A DNA stretch of 64,000 bases from Treponema primitia ZAS-2 (lineage in GTDB: Bacteria > Spirochaetota > Spirochaetia > Treponematales > Breznakiellaceae). Positions 58,157-62,434 of the stretch are shown in pieces; the stretch's first letter is position 1; each line of letters begins with the position of its first letter. The stretch lies in NCBI RefSeq assembly GCF_000214375.1, contig NC_015578.1:1860001-1924000 (forward strand), written 5' to 3'. The position numbers and the translations under genes were made by a program. Below the pieces are notes generated by a model. That model did not search any database and was not told the origin of the DNA. It saw only the letters and a list, made by a program, of their open reading frames with translations.

Positions 58157-59716
58157 GTGAATAAGATTTTACAGGAAAAAATCAAAGAAGCGTTTTCTTC
58201 AGTGCTTCCCATTACTGCGATTGTGCTTATTGCGAGCATAATCCTCGTTCCCATGTCCGCGGGGATCATCGTGATGTTCCTGGTGGGGGCGGCCCTGCTC
58301 ATCATAGGCATGGGCTTCTTTACCCTGGGGGCGGACATGGCCATGATGCCCATGGGGGAAGGCATAGGCGCCCAGCTCACCAAGGGGCAGAGCGTGTTTA
58401 TGGCGGTAGGGGTCAGTTTCCTCATGGGCCTTATTATAACCATTGCGGAGCCTGATCTGATGGTATTGGCCCTCCAGCTTGCGGAATCCCTCAACCCCTG
58501 GGTGCTGATCATTACCGTAGGTTTAGGGGTAGGGCTCTTCCTTTCAATTGCGGTACTGCGTATCCTTTTTGGTATTCCCCTGCGATTTTTGCTCCTGTTC
58601 CTCTATATTGTTACCTTTGGCCTGGCGTTTTATATGCAAAGCGCCGGGGATGGGGCTTTTATCCCGGTTTCCTTTGACGCCGGGGGGGTTACCACCGGGC
58701 CTATCACAGTGCCCTTCATGCTGGCCATGTGTCTGGGCGTGGCGTCCCTGCGGGGCGATAAAAGCTCCAAGGACGACAGCTTCGGCTTTGTGGCCCTGTG
58801 CAGCGTGGGCCCGATCATTTCGGTGATGGTCCTGGGGGTGGTCAACCATATCACCAAGGTTACCCCCCAGATACCCAGCGATGAATCAATCGCCCTGATC
58901 GACAAATACACGGACCGGGATGTGGTGGTGCAGTTTGTCGAGCATTTCCCGGAGACCATACAAGAAGTCGCCATGGCTTTAGGCGCGATTTTGGTGTTCT
59001 TCGTTGTTTTCCAGCTCATCACCCGACGCTACAAAAAACACCAGCTTGCCAGGATCGTGATAGGCTTTTTGTATACCTTCATCGGCCTGGTGGTGTTCCT
59101 TACGGGGGTGAACGTAGGCTTTATTCCGGTAGGGAGCCTCTTCGGAAGCAAGCTCGGTCAGTCGGAACTCAAGTGGATACTAGTGCCCCTGAGTATGCTC
59201 ATCGGATACTTCATCGTAGCTGCGGAACCGGCGGTGCACGTGCTCAACAAGCAGGTTGAAGAGGTATCCCAGGGGGCGGTCACCCAAAAAACAATGAATA
59301 CCGGGTTGTCGGTGGGTATGGCCCTGGCCCTGGGTATTACTATGATAAGGATACTGCTCGGTATTCCCATTATGTATATACTGGTACCGGGTTATGGATT
59401 CGCCCTGATCCTCACCTTTTTTGTGCCGAAAATTTTTACCGGTATTGCTTTTGACTCCGGGGGCGTGTGTTCGGGCCCCATGACTTCGACCTTCCTCCTG
59501 CCCTTCGCTATCGGGGCCTGCGCGGGTTCCGGCGGGGATACCATGCGGGACGCCTTCGGCATTGTGGCCATGGTGGCCATGACACCCTTGGTGGTGATCC
59601 AGATTTTGGGGCTTGTCTACGGCATAAAAATGGCGGCAAAAGCAAAAGGCCTGGGCGGAGTTACCGCAGGCGCAGGGGAAGTCATCCTCTTCGAGGAGGA
59701 ATACACTTATGGCTAA
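58157..59716 (+). CDS. DUF1538 membrane protein, tandemly duplicated (UmpA-UmpB-like fusion)
   Basis: A 519-residue integral membrane protein with about a dozen helices in two homologous halves offset by about 259 residues. Paired motifs are FDAGGVTTGP (173-182) and FDSGGVCSGP (432-441); AEPD (97-100) and AEPA (356-359); RILFGIPLRF and RILLGIPIMY. The halves correspond to the separate UmpA and UmpB proteins of other bacteria; I recall a Halomonas UmpAB pair reported as a Na+(Li+,K+)/H+ antiporter, which would make this a monomeric fused antiporter, but transport here is inference. GTG start after AGAGG. The stop overlaps the downstream PII-like gene by 8 bases, so the two proteins are co-translated. 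Confidence 0.85.
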   Translation: MNKILQEKIKEAFSSVLPITAIVLIASIILVPMSAGIIVMFLVGAALLIIGMGFFTLGADMAMMPMGEGIGAQLTKGQSVFMAVGVSFLMGLIITIAEPDLMVLALQLAESLNPWVLIITVGLGVGLFLSIAVLRILFGIPLRFLLLFLYIVTFGLAFYMQSAGDGAFIPVSFDAGGVTTGPITVPFMLAMCLGVASLRGDKSSKDDSFGFVALCSVGPIISVMVLGVVNHITKVTPQIPSDESIALIDKYTDRDVVVQFVEHFPETIQEVAMALGAILVFFVVFQLITRRYKKHQLARIVIGFLYTFIGLVVFLTGVNVGFIPVGSLFGSKLGQSELKWILVPLSMLIGYFIVAAEPAVHVLNKQVEEVSQGAVTQKTMNTGLSVGMALALGITMIRILLGIPIMYILVPGYGFALILTFFVPKIFTGIAFDSGGVCSGPMTSTFLLPFAIGACAGSGGDTMRDAFGIVAMVAMTPLVVIQILGLVYGIKMAAKAKGLGGVTAGAGEVILFEEEYTYG

Positions 59717-60482
59717 TACAGAAACAAACCCGAAGAATTCGAATTTACAGACCGGCGGAAACATCCTCAGGCTGAAATTGATCTTTTTGATTGTTGACTG
59801 GGACAAGGCCCGGGCCGTTTCAGATGTGATTGAAGAGGGATCATGTCCGCTGGTATTTCTCACTAAGGGGCAAGGGACCGCTCAGTCCGATATTCTTGAC
59901 CTCCTGGGTTTAGGAGCAACCGATAAGGCCGTACTTCTTTGTGTGGCAGAAGCTTTGGAAACGCCGACCCTCATAAAAACTGTTCGTCATGCCATGGGCA
60001 GCAAAAGTGCAGGCGCGGGCATCGCTTTTACAGTGCCTCTATCGGGCATTAATGCTCCCTTAATGAAAGTGTTTCTGGAAGCGGAAACAGATGCAGAAAA
60101 CGAGAAAACGCAAATAGCAAAGGAGAATCCAAAAATGGCAGATAACGATACTACGGTCTCAGGACCCATTGCGATAAAGAATGAGCTTATCCTTTCGATC
60201 CTGAACAACGGTTTCAGCGATGAGTTTATGGTCGCGGCCCGCAAAGCCGGAGCCCGGGGGGGTACTGTTCTCAGTGCTCGGGGGCTTTCCCAACAGATAG
60301 TGAAAAAATTCCTGGGGATTTCTGTGCAGGAAGAAAAGGAAATTATTATTATCCTGGCGGATAAAGATAAAAAGCTGCCTATTATGCAAGCCGTGAGTAA
60401 TGCCTTCGGCATCTCTTCCAAGGCCGGGGGGGTCATCTTCTCCCTGCCAGTGGATCAGGTGATGAGCCTGAACGAGATTTAG
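59709..60482 (+). CDS. Tandem PII-like regulatory protein
   Basis: A 257-residue cytoplasmic protein made of two GlnB-like ferredoxin-fold domains joined by a charged linker (about 120-150). Domain 1 (20-115) contains RLKLIFLIVDWDKARAVSDVI and the late GIAFTVPLSGI; domain 2 (155-250) contains NELILSILNNGFSDEFMVAA and GGVIFSLPVDQV. The T-loop region is short (GQGTAQSDILDLL; RGLSQQIVKKFL), and the uridylylation-type tyrosine of classical GlnB is not seen. A strong GAGGAGG lies before the ATG. As the partner of the DUF1538 protein it probably gates transport in response to a nucleotide, as GlnK does for AmtB; the ligand is unknown. Confidence 0.83.
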   Translation: MANTETNPKNSNLQTGGNILRLKLIFLIVDWDKARAVSDVIEEGSCPLVFLTKGQGTAQSDILDLLGLGATDKAVLLCVAEALETPTLIKTVRHAMGSKSAGAGIAFTVPLSGINAPLMKVFLEAETDAENEKTQIAKENPKMADNDTTVSGPIAIKNELILSILNNGFSDEFMVAARKAGARGGTVLSARGLSQQIVKKFLGISVQEEKEIIIILADKDKKLPIMQAVSNAFGISSKAGGVIFSLPVDQVMSLNEI

Positions 60483-60613: not shown

Positions 60614-60646
60614 GAAGATACCCCGCTGTTTGCGGCGGGGTTCTTC
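60614..60646. repeat. REP-like palindrome
   Basis: GAAGATACCCCGC...GCGGGGTTCTTC, a stem with one bulge around a short loop, resembling REP elements mobilised by RAYT/Y1 transposases. Spurious peptides from this kind of element (RRKQRGI-type) are common in databases. It lies at the border where base composition changes from balanced to AT-rich. Confidence 0.6.
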
Positions 60647-60727: not shown

Positions 60728-61378
60728 ATGTTCTTTCAATATGGCAAAGCTGAAATTGAGTATCTGAAAAACAGAGATAAAATACTCGGTAATGCCATTG
60801 AAAAAATTGGGCATATAGAAAGAGCTGTTGATACTGATCTGTTTTCATCAATTATACACCATATCATTGGTCAGCAAATATCGACATCAGCACAAAGGAC
60901 GATATGGGAAAGAATGGCTGATAAACTGGGGATAATTACCTATGATACTATTTGCAGCCTGAATATTGAAGAAATACAACGGTTTGGAATGACCTTTAAA
61001 AAAGCGGAATGCATTAAGAGTTTTTCCTGTAAAGTTAAAAACGGGGAATTTGACATAAACACTATTAAGGATAAACCGGACAGTGAAATAATTGATGAAT
61101 TGTCCGATTTAAAGGGCATTGGCCAATGGACGGCAGAAATGATAATGATTTTTTGCCTGCAACGGCAGGATATTTTTAGTTATAGCGATCTTGCAATTCA
61201 AAGAGGATTACGGATATTATATCATCACAGGAGCATAAACAAAAAACTGTTTGAAAAATATAGGCGCAGGTACAGTCCCTATGGTACGGTTGCAAGCCTG
61301 TATCTCTGGGTAATTTCGGCAGGCAAAATTGAAGGGATGAAAGATTATGCCCCTAAAAAAACAAAGGTGGTAAAATGA
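60728..61378 (+). CDS. alkA: DNA-3-methyladenine glycosylase II
   Basis: Base-excision glycosylase removing 3-methyladenine and related alkylated bases. The 216-residue protein carries the HhH-GPD fold: FSSIIHHIIGQQISTSAQRTIW, hairpin LKGIGQWTAEMIMIF (128-142) and catalytic Asp154 in YSDLAIQRG. It lacks the N-terminal TATA-like domain of E. coli AlkA. GGAAGG precedes the ATG. Clearly more AT-rich than its neighbours upstream. Overlaps adaA by 4 bases. Confidence 0.93.
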   Translation: MFFQYGKAEIEYLKNRDKILGNAIEKIGHIERAVDTDLFSSIIHHIIGQQISTSAQRTIWERMADKLGIITYDTICSLNIEEIQRFGMTFKKAECIKSFSCKVKNGEFDINTIKDKPDSEIIDELSDLKGIGQWTAEMIMIFCLQRQDIFSYSDLAIQRGLRILYHHRSINKKLFEKYRRRYSPYGTVASLYLWVISAGKIEGMKDYAPKKTKVVK

Positions 61379-61941
61379 CCGATAACGAAAGATGGAAAGC
61401 GGTATTGGAAAATGATACACACTATGACGGCATTTTCTTTTACGGCGTAAAAACGACAAAAATATTTTGCAAGCCCTCATGCATATCAAAAGTCCCTCTT
61501 GGAAAAAACGTGGCGTATTTTGCTACGGTAAAACAGGCTGAACAGGCAGGATACCGCCCCTGCAAACGCTGCCGCCCGGATCTTCTTGAGTATCATCCAA
61601 TAAAAGAAATAGCTGAAAAAATAAAGGTATTACTGGACAGTTATTTTAACCGGGAAAAAGAGCTTTCCAAAGAAATTGGAAAAATTGGCGTAAGCTATCA
61701 TCGCATGATAGATATATTTAAGGAATATTATGGCATTACCCCAAAAAAATATTATGACAATTTAAGAATAGAGGAAGCAAAAAAACTATTAGTAACAACC
61801 AATAATACAATTATAGATATTTCCTACAATATTGGATTTGCAAGTTTGTCAACATTTTATACTGCATTCAAAAAAGCTGCAAATTTATCGCCCGCAAAAT
61901 ATAGAAAGGAGCAGAATAATGGAATACATTCAGAAGCTTAA
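61375..61941 (+). CDS. adaA: Ada-like methylphosphotriester methyltransferase and AraC-type regulator
   Basis: Transfers methyl groups from DNA phosphotriesters to its own cysteine and so becomes an activator of the adaptive response. The 188-residue protein has the Ada zinc module (Cys32, Cys36, Cys63, Cys66; Cys32 corresponds to E. coli Cys38) and a C-terminal AraC helix-turn-helix pair (NTIIDISYNIGFASLSTFYTAFKKAANLSPAKYRK). The O6-methylguanine domain is encoded separately downstream, the AdaA/AdaB split seen in Bacillus. Overlaps both neighbours. Confidence 0.92.
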   Translation: MTDNERWKAVLENDTHYDGIFFYGVKTTKIFCKPSCISKVPLGKNVAYFATVKQAEQAGYRPCKRCRPDLLEYHPIKEIAEKIKVLLDSYFNREKELSKEIGKIGVSYHRMIDIFKEYYGITPKKYYDNLRIEEAKKLLVTTNNTIIDISYNIGFASLSTFYTAFKKAANLSPAKYRKEQNNGIHSEA

Positions 61942-62434
61942 TTCCCCTGTGGGAATACTTACCCTGGCAAGTGACGGGCAAAGTATTTCCGGCCTCTGGA
62001 TAGAGGGACAAAAATATTTTGCCCGTTCCCTTGAAAAAGAGACCTGCGAAAAACACTTGCCGGTTTTTGGGGAGGCAAAAAAATGGCTGGATATTTATTT
62101 TTCAGGCAAAGAGCCTGATTTTATGCCGCCCCTGCTGCCAAAAGGTACCATGTTTCAAAAATCAATATGGAATATTTTGTGTACTATTTCTTATGGGAAC
62201 ACCAGTACCTATGGAGAACTTGCCAAGAAGTTTGAATCCCTCAACAATGGCAAAAGGACTGCTGCACGGGCAGTCGGGAGCGCCGTAGGCCGCAACCCTA
62301 TTTCTATTTTAATACCATGCCATCGGATACTTGGCAAAGACGGGGGGCTCACTGGGTATGCGGGGGGTGTGGATATCAAAGAAAAACTTTTACAGTTGGA
62401 AGATGTTGACCAAGGAGTTAAAAGCCATGGGTAA
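61919..62434 (+). CDS. ogt: O6-methylguanine-DNA methyltransferase
   Basis: Suicide repair protein (171 residues from MEYIQKLNSP) with active-site Cys134 in IPCHRIL and the preceding AVGRNPISILIPCHR motif; the N-terminal ribonuclease-like domain precedes it. Start 61919 is supported by AAGGAG 8 bases upstream; it overlaps adaA by 23 bases. With alkA and adaA it makes a compact alkylation-damage operon. Confidence 0.95.
   Translation: MEYIQKLNSPVGILTLASDGQSISGLWIEGQKYFARSLEKETCEKHLPVFGEAKKWLDIYFSGKEPDFMPPLLPKGTMFQKSIWNILCTISYGNTSTYGELAKKFESLNNGKRTAARAVGSAVGRNPISILIPCHRILGKDGGLTGYAGGVDIKEKLLQLEDVDQGVKSHG

Follow-up and report, generated by a model that had tools for sequence, protein, structure and literature searches.

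A fused DUF1538 membrane protein paired with a double PII protein in Treponema primitia: a candidate regulated transporter with a probable internal start in the PII gene

The window analyzed here is a stretch of 64,000 nucleotides from the genome of Treponema primitia ZAS-2. Toward its end, a gene for a membrane protein with two DUF1538 domains is followed by a gene for a protein with two PII-like domains. The features of this locus, numbered by position in the window, are as follows.

58157..59716, plus strand: fused tandem DUF1538 membrane protein, GTG start, 519 aa, PF07556 in two stretches
58187..58837, plus strand: first DUF1538 half, residues 11-227 (match range of the NCBIfam UmpB model)
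58673..58702, plus strand: motif FDAGGVTTGP, residues 173-182, D174 invariant (sequence and alignment conservation)
58988..59617, plus strand: second DUF1538 half, residues 278-487 (Pfam match range)
59450..59479, plus strand: motif FDSGGVCSGP, residues 432-441, D433 invariant (sequence and conservation)
59693..59699, plus strand: Shine-Dalgarno (SD) sequence GAGGAGG of the PII gene, inside the coding end of the DUF1538 gene (anti-SD duplex -11.8 kcal/mol)
59709..59716, plus strand: 8-nt overlap of the DUF1538 and PII genes (ORF coordinates)
59709..60482, plus strand: double PII protein, full-length product N-C, 257 aa (Pfam P-II in the C half; predicted model)
59772..60071, plus strand: N-terminal PII domain, residues 22-121 (VIA-align Z 11.5 to 4c3k; hhalign of N against C)
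60120..60125, plus strand: putative internal SD AAGGAG in the linker between the PII domains (sequence; -8.7 kcal/mol; class-wide excess)
60135..60482, plus strand: predicted short product, free C-terminal PII, 115 aa, internal ATG at Met143 (in-frame ATG 9 nt past the SD core)
60180..60467, plus strand: C-terminal PII domain, residues 158-253 (PF00543; secondary structure of the model)
60620..60641, plus strand: terminator-like hairpin, probable end of the two-gene operon (consensus scan only; such sites are no commoner here than chance allows)

The first ORF matches PF07556 with an E-value of 1.2e-131 and 436.8 bits against a gathering score of 22.6, and the match consists of two copies. An earlier note on this DNA had described two DUF1538 halves with matched motifs. 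Both PF07556 copies and the quoted FD.GG and AEP motifs were confirmed, the AEP motif lying at residues 97-99 and 356-358. In the alignment of 46 DUF1538 proteins, E98, D174, E357, and D433 are invariant, and the acidic motifs are unchanged from Spirochaetes to Clostridia. The predicted helices have breaks near these invariant E/D motifs, as ion sites might show.

UmpAB, the DUF1538 pair of Halomonas zhaodongensis, is a Na+(Li+,K+)/H+ antiporter for which both subunits are required (PMC5484666). It shares the DUF1538 family and the two homologous halves with the window protein, which resembles UmpB-UmpA in one chain: the UmpB model matches residues 11-227 and the UmpA model residues 276-487. 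Both matches miss the UmpA and UmpB equivalog cut-offs (NF041627 and NF041628), with 146.4 and 144.9 bits against 490 and 500; these are single-subunit models, while the window protein has both halves in one chain. Unlike the UmpAB subunits, the window halves are fused in 519 aa and lie beside a double PII gene, and PII is unmentioned in the Halomonas paper (PMC5484666). The UmpAB clone that was active in E. coli carried no PII gene, so PII is dispensable for transport as such.

Homology to UmpAB makes antiport the most likely function of the fused DUF1538 protein. The regulated ion antiporter favored in the earlier note remains the leading hypothesis through UmpAB (PMC5484666), although the fused form falls below the equivalog cut-offs. 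It is unlikely that the protein carries some other solute, such as another ion or a metabolite, as a transporter or a channel still controlled by PII. Such a function would be compatible with UmpA/UmpB matches far under the cut-off, with a predicted DUF1538 model that has no significant match in the PDB (Foldseek, best E-value 0.04), and with the Halomonas pair being the only assayed DUF1538 pair found in the literature search. The invariance of the acidic motifs from Spirochaetes to Clostridia argues instead for the antiporter, as does a model of bacterial growth pH that reports DUF1538 as one of its key Pfam features (PMC13255231). One double PII gene also lies next to a gene of PF03553, an unrelated family of Na+/H+ antiporters, a position that may be incidental.

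The second protein matches PF00543 in its C half (residues 170-253) with 29.7 bits, above the cut-off of 25, while P-II was undetected by Pfam in the N half. The profiles of the two halves are homologous over their whole length (hhalign, probability 99.5%, E-value 1e-22). The predicted model, built from an alignment of 73 sequences, has a mean pLDDT of 84.7 and contains two successive ferredoxin-like units. Its N half superposes on the PII structure 4c3k with a Z score of 11.5 and 1.8 A over 91 residues, and also on E. coli GlnK 2gnk (Z 11.2) and SbtB 6n4a (Z 10.8). The order of structural elements in the C half of the model is the same as in the N half. A phmmer search of the PDB with the double PII alone found nothing. 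Judged by these profile and fold searches, both halves are PII-like, as the earlier note had read them: the C half by Pfam, and the N half by profile homology and fold.

The canonical contacts for ATP and 2-oxoglutarate (T-loop base, B-loop Lys, and C-loop Arg-x-Arg) are absent in the C domain as judged by alignment only; FGRGKQKG and TGKYGDGRIF...TIRT of the PDB PII 9p1x face non-matching residues in the profile alignment. The window protein also lacks the T-loop tyrosine for uridylylation, since residues 57-71 and 192-208 include no Tyr. All 73 aligned sequences share Gly184-Gly185-Thr186, so a ligand of some sort may still bind. At about 15 and 17 residues in the model, the two T-loop segments are short, and they have conserved residues, features that fit contact with a conserved partner.

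The first 8 nt of the PII reading frame are also the last 8 nt of the DUF1538 reading frame, in agreement with the shared 8 bases reported earlier. The PII protein is probably made by translation coupled to that of the DUF1538 gene. No Rfam element was found around the pair at the curated cut-off; there is one sub-threshold match, PhotoRC-I. At ten other loci, Rfam gave three matches (T-box, lysine riboswitch, and tRNA), all away from the pair. Downstream, at 60728-62434, an alkylation-repair trio of consecutive, separate, overlapping genes encodes an HhH-GPD glycosylase, Ada (zinc and AraC-type HTH), and an O6-methylguanine-DNA methyltransferase.

The DUF1538 alignment was scanned against 84,980 species genomes and yielded at least 586 confirmed relatives, of which the best 80 were used. 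These best 80 loci are mostly from Spirochaetota and Bacillota, including Treponema and other Spirochaetes, many Clostridia, an Enterococcus, and a Synergistaceae. A PII gene lies directly downstream on the same strand at 76 of them. It is one two-domain ORF at 72 loci and two adjacent ORFs at four (L073, L076, L086, and L096). Among the four loci where PII is not adjacent, two are near a contig edge (L057 and L059), and in the other two genomes the pair is unlinked, with the double PII encoded elsewhere (L051 and L054).

DUF1538 exceeds the cut-off in 26 of 149 Spirochaetota genomes. The PII profile likewise matches 26 of the 149, namely 25 with DUF1538 plus G057. In the remaining DUF1538 genome, G194, PII domains were found beside DUF1538 on inspection (L159). 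Counted in this way, PII is present in 26/26 Spirochaetota genomes with DUF1538 vs. 1/123 without it. The fused DUF1538 and double PII genes occur on Clostridial plasmids, too. The arrangement recurs in dozens of distant genomes and is thus not due to chance. A search for such neighbors in other genomes had been proposed in the earlier note, and it found linkage nearly everywhere that DUF1538 was found. The gene pairing is conserved, and RefSeq-derived labels already exist for both products (P-II family nitrogen regulator and DUF1538 domain-containing protein).

Several loci differ from this pattern. In G057, which has no DUF1538, the double PII gene follows a PNP_UDP_1 (nucleosidase-type) gene and luxS, with a slight overlap with luxS (L160:4453-6372). 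In a relative, G028, the double PII gene lies directly before an NhaC-type Na+/H+ antiporter gene of PF03553 (both at L156:7058-9368; L003), and the DUF1538 gene is on another contig (L157). NhaC was considered as a second partner of PII and rejected: no such gene was seen in the similar neighborhood of L167, so its position beside the double PII may be incidental. On a Clostridiales contig, a stop codon lies within the DUF1538 match range (L069:6001-7524).

The genome of T. primitia ZAS-2 contains a second DUF1538 and double-PII pair (G000:C1:41683-43966; L158:3684-5967). Two further loci, whose gene names were read by eye, are an amtB-PII locus (L148), distinct from these pairs, and one where a nifH-like gene is followed by two adjacent PII genes (L149). 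With these loci present, the window pair is unlikely to duplicate what they do.

The linker between the two PII domains of the window protein, AAAGGAGAATCCAAAAATGG, contains an SD core, a 9-nt spacer, and an in-frame ATG (60120-60137). The anti-SD duplex energy is -8.7 kcal/mol at this internal start, -11.8 at the PII gene's own start, and -7.1 at the DUF1538 start. In a first count, an SD match of at least 5 nt was present at 59 of 206 linker ATGs vs. 13 of 694 ATGs inside the domains. Clustering at 70% identity left 90 non-redundant genes, whose linkers were recoded with synonymous codons weighted by their own locus. An SD match of at least 5 nt was found in 42 of the 90 genes, while recoding expects 14.8 +/- 2.9 (maximum 22 in 200 runs). 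When ATG, GTG, and TTG were accepted with an energy cut-off of -7.5, the count was 70 of 90, against an expected 30.9 +/- 4.0 (maximum 40 in 100 runs). By the same energy criterion, a strong start was seen in 41 of 363 windows inside the PII domains. The abundance of Glu, Lys, and Gly in the linkers makes for a high recoding baseline; the evidence is therefore the excess over this baseline, not the raw count, and the excess was seen at all three energy cut-offs reported. As a control, the DUF1538 genes of these operons were examined in the linker that joins their two halves, and 8 of 84 have a strong start there.

The position of these starts is also constrained. ATGs located 2-11 nt past the SD core are in frame in 45 cases and out of frame in 3, and the spacing between SD and ATG peaks at 8-9 nt. 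The internal start lies a median of 8 residues ahead of the matched C domain. The internal ATG is swapped only for GTG or TTG while the SD stays; TTG is used in several Lachnospiraceae (L095 and L130: AGGAGGAATCAACCTTG). At the four split loci, the separate C gene opens at the equivalent place with its own SD. In the linker of the second pair in the T. primitia genome, the best internal start is a GTG with a weaker SD (-6.4 kcal/mol). Triple-PII genes have few such signals. The comparison with recoded linkers indicates that the nucleotide sequence of the linker is selected to keep an SD and an in-frame start. This excess and the low control suggest that the gene probably yields both the full-length N-C chain and a free C domain, and synthesis of the free C-terminal PII from the internal start is considered highly probable.

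SD-like sequences can arise for reasons besides initiation, such as a translational pause for domain folding, and the split forms indicate that a two-gene state exists, of which the linker SD could be a remnant after a recent fusion. The baseline of 30.9 in 90 would also be in line with these explanations. Nevertheless, a pause or a remnant is quite improbable. The 45 to 3 preference for the reading frame, the spacing peak, the restriction of ATG replacements to GTG and TTG, and the scarcity of the signal in the comparable DUF1538 linker all argue for a start site. The tree of 83 DUF1538 proteins, which mainly represent the best 80 of at least 586 loci, shows Treponema-type sequences nested among Clostridia. 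The split-PII loci form one small Clostridial group, while the fused forms fill the rest of the tree, over deep branches. Recent fusion as the only source of the linker SD is thus unlikely.

PII proteins are trimers, and it is in this form that they act on transporters such as AmtB and SbtA (PMC8352866 for SbtA-SbtB). A two-domain chain alone cannot fill three places, while one N-C chain and one free C domain can, and a mixed ring is proposed on this basis. The earlier note had suggested a pseudo-hexamer or a match to the pseudo-twofold membrane protein. The internal start and the one-, two-, and three-domain relatives were not known to it, and a ring of N-C plus free C is the simpler candidate. 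This composition is a tentative proposal, with somewhat less than an even chance of being correct. The main alternative is that only the full-length product matters, the short product being minor or absent, and that two linked trimers (N3 and C3), stacked or lying side by side, are built from three N-C chains. Each domain retains the complete fold of the trimeric PII proteins, and at the -7.5 cut-off no strong internal start is seen in about one fifth of the non-redundant genes. This arrangement is unlikely, as the linker nucleotides are under selection for an SD and in-frame start, and the split-gene forms imply that free C domains exist. The mixed ring itself faces the difficulty that, in profile scoring, the domains of the triple protein do not sort clearly as N, C, and C.

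The number of PII domains tracks the architecture of the transporter in the sequences compared. A split DUF1538 pair is accompanied by one PII domain, a fused protein of ~500 aa by two, and a fused protein of ~700 aa by about three. The single-PII class consists of two records only, both from Alphaproteobacterial plasmids (Methylocystis rosea and Chelativorans sp.), each with a pair of separate DUF1538 genes and a single-domain PII gene. The latter is annotated as P-II family nitrogen regulator, and the C-type profile gives it the higher score. At the other end, larger DUF1538 proteins (mostly 630-740 aa) pair with a downstream protein of ~370-440 aa. The profile accepts one to three PII domains in this downstream protein, and its length fits three. 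These large DUF1538 and multi-PII operons are located as follows.

L162:1812-7297
L163:2368-7906
L155:3634-9905

They adjoin or diverge from a second DUF1538 and PII operon on the same contig, and G011 and G006 have both systems side by side (L162 and L163). A literal N+C+C composition of the triple protein was rejected: domain 3 is C-like and domains 1 and 2 are mixed in N/C profile scoring. Because of this mixture, the triple protein cannot be used as proof of the ring composition.

NifI1 and NifI2 are, like the two domains here, different PII proteins encoded in tandem, and their target is nitrogenase. They have separate genes and canonical motifs, whereas the window pair is encoded by one gene beside a transporter. 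AmtB-GlnK shares the order of a membrane transporter gene with a PII gene directly after it, but the transporter is unrelated and the PII is canonical and single-domain. Compared with GlnK, the window PII is double, has shorter T-loops without the tyrosine, and has non-canonical ligand residues. In SbtA-SbtB, a PII-like protein of the non-nitrogen type acts on a Na+-linked transporter, and the N-domain model fits SbtB. SbtB is a single-domain homotrimer on the trimeric transporter SbtA (PMC8352866), while the window chain has two domains and probably an extra free C, and the transporter families are unrelated by sequence. The full-length chain of Spa33 combines with its internally started C domain in a 1:2 ratio (PMC4832279). 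As in Spa33/SpaO (SctQ), one gene here would provide a fused and a free subunit; fold and function are unrelated, and the precedent concerns the assembly principle only.

Taken as a whole, the DUF1538-PII pair is moderately favored to be a regulated transport unit composed of an Ump-like antiporter and a PII-type regulator with two products and mixed rings. The fused DUF1538 protein would be a one-chain form of the UmpA-UmpB Na+(Li+,K+)/H+ antiporter, and the second gene would supply a cytoplasmic PII-type regulator, probably through coupled translation. Its two products would be the N-C chain and the C domain alone, made from the internal SD and ATG. PII-type rings would then assemble, in the simplest case from one N-C chain and one free C, that is, three domains, and dock on the cytoplasmic face of the antiporter via the short conserved T-loops. 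A small ligand would cause the ring to turn transport up or down. We infer antiport by the fused protein, physical contact, the make-up of the ring, the ligand, and the direction of control from the comparisons above. The equivalog scores, the lack of a fold match in the PDB, the non-canonical ligand residues, the two unlinked pairs, and the double PII of G057 without DUF1538 stand against this explanation.

The window pair appears to be a variant of PII-controlled transport. A literature search on DUF1538 with PII, tandem PII, and PII with antiporters, with subscription journals mostly outside its coverage, found no description of the arrangement and no paper on a double or triple PII or on the internal start.

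PII proteins are best known as nitrogen sensors. The branch described here is divergent and widespread, and is linked to a family of cation/proton antiporters; no described regulator or solved relative of this family was found. It is conceivable, though somewhat doubtful, that these systems represent a multi-phylum class of antiporters with their own PII ring, whose three places are filled lineage by lineage by three single copies, by N-C with an internally started C, or by one three-domain chain. Being asymmetric, a mixed ring would correspond to a transporter whose two halves are unlike. The series of domain numbers (one, two plus a free one, and three), together with the internal start, bears on the assembly of PII rings and on the purpose of an asymmetric one.
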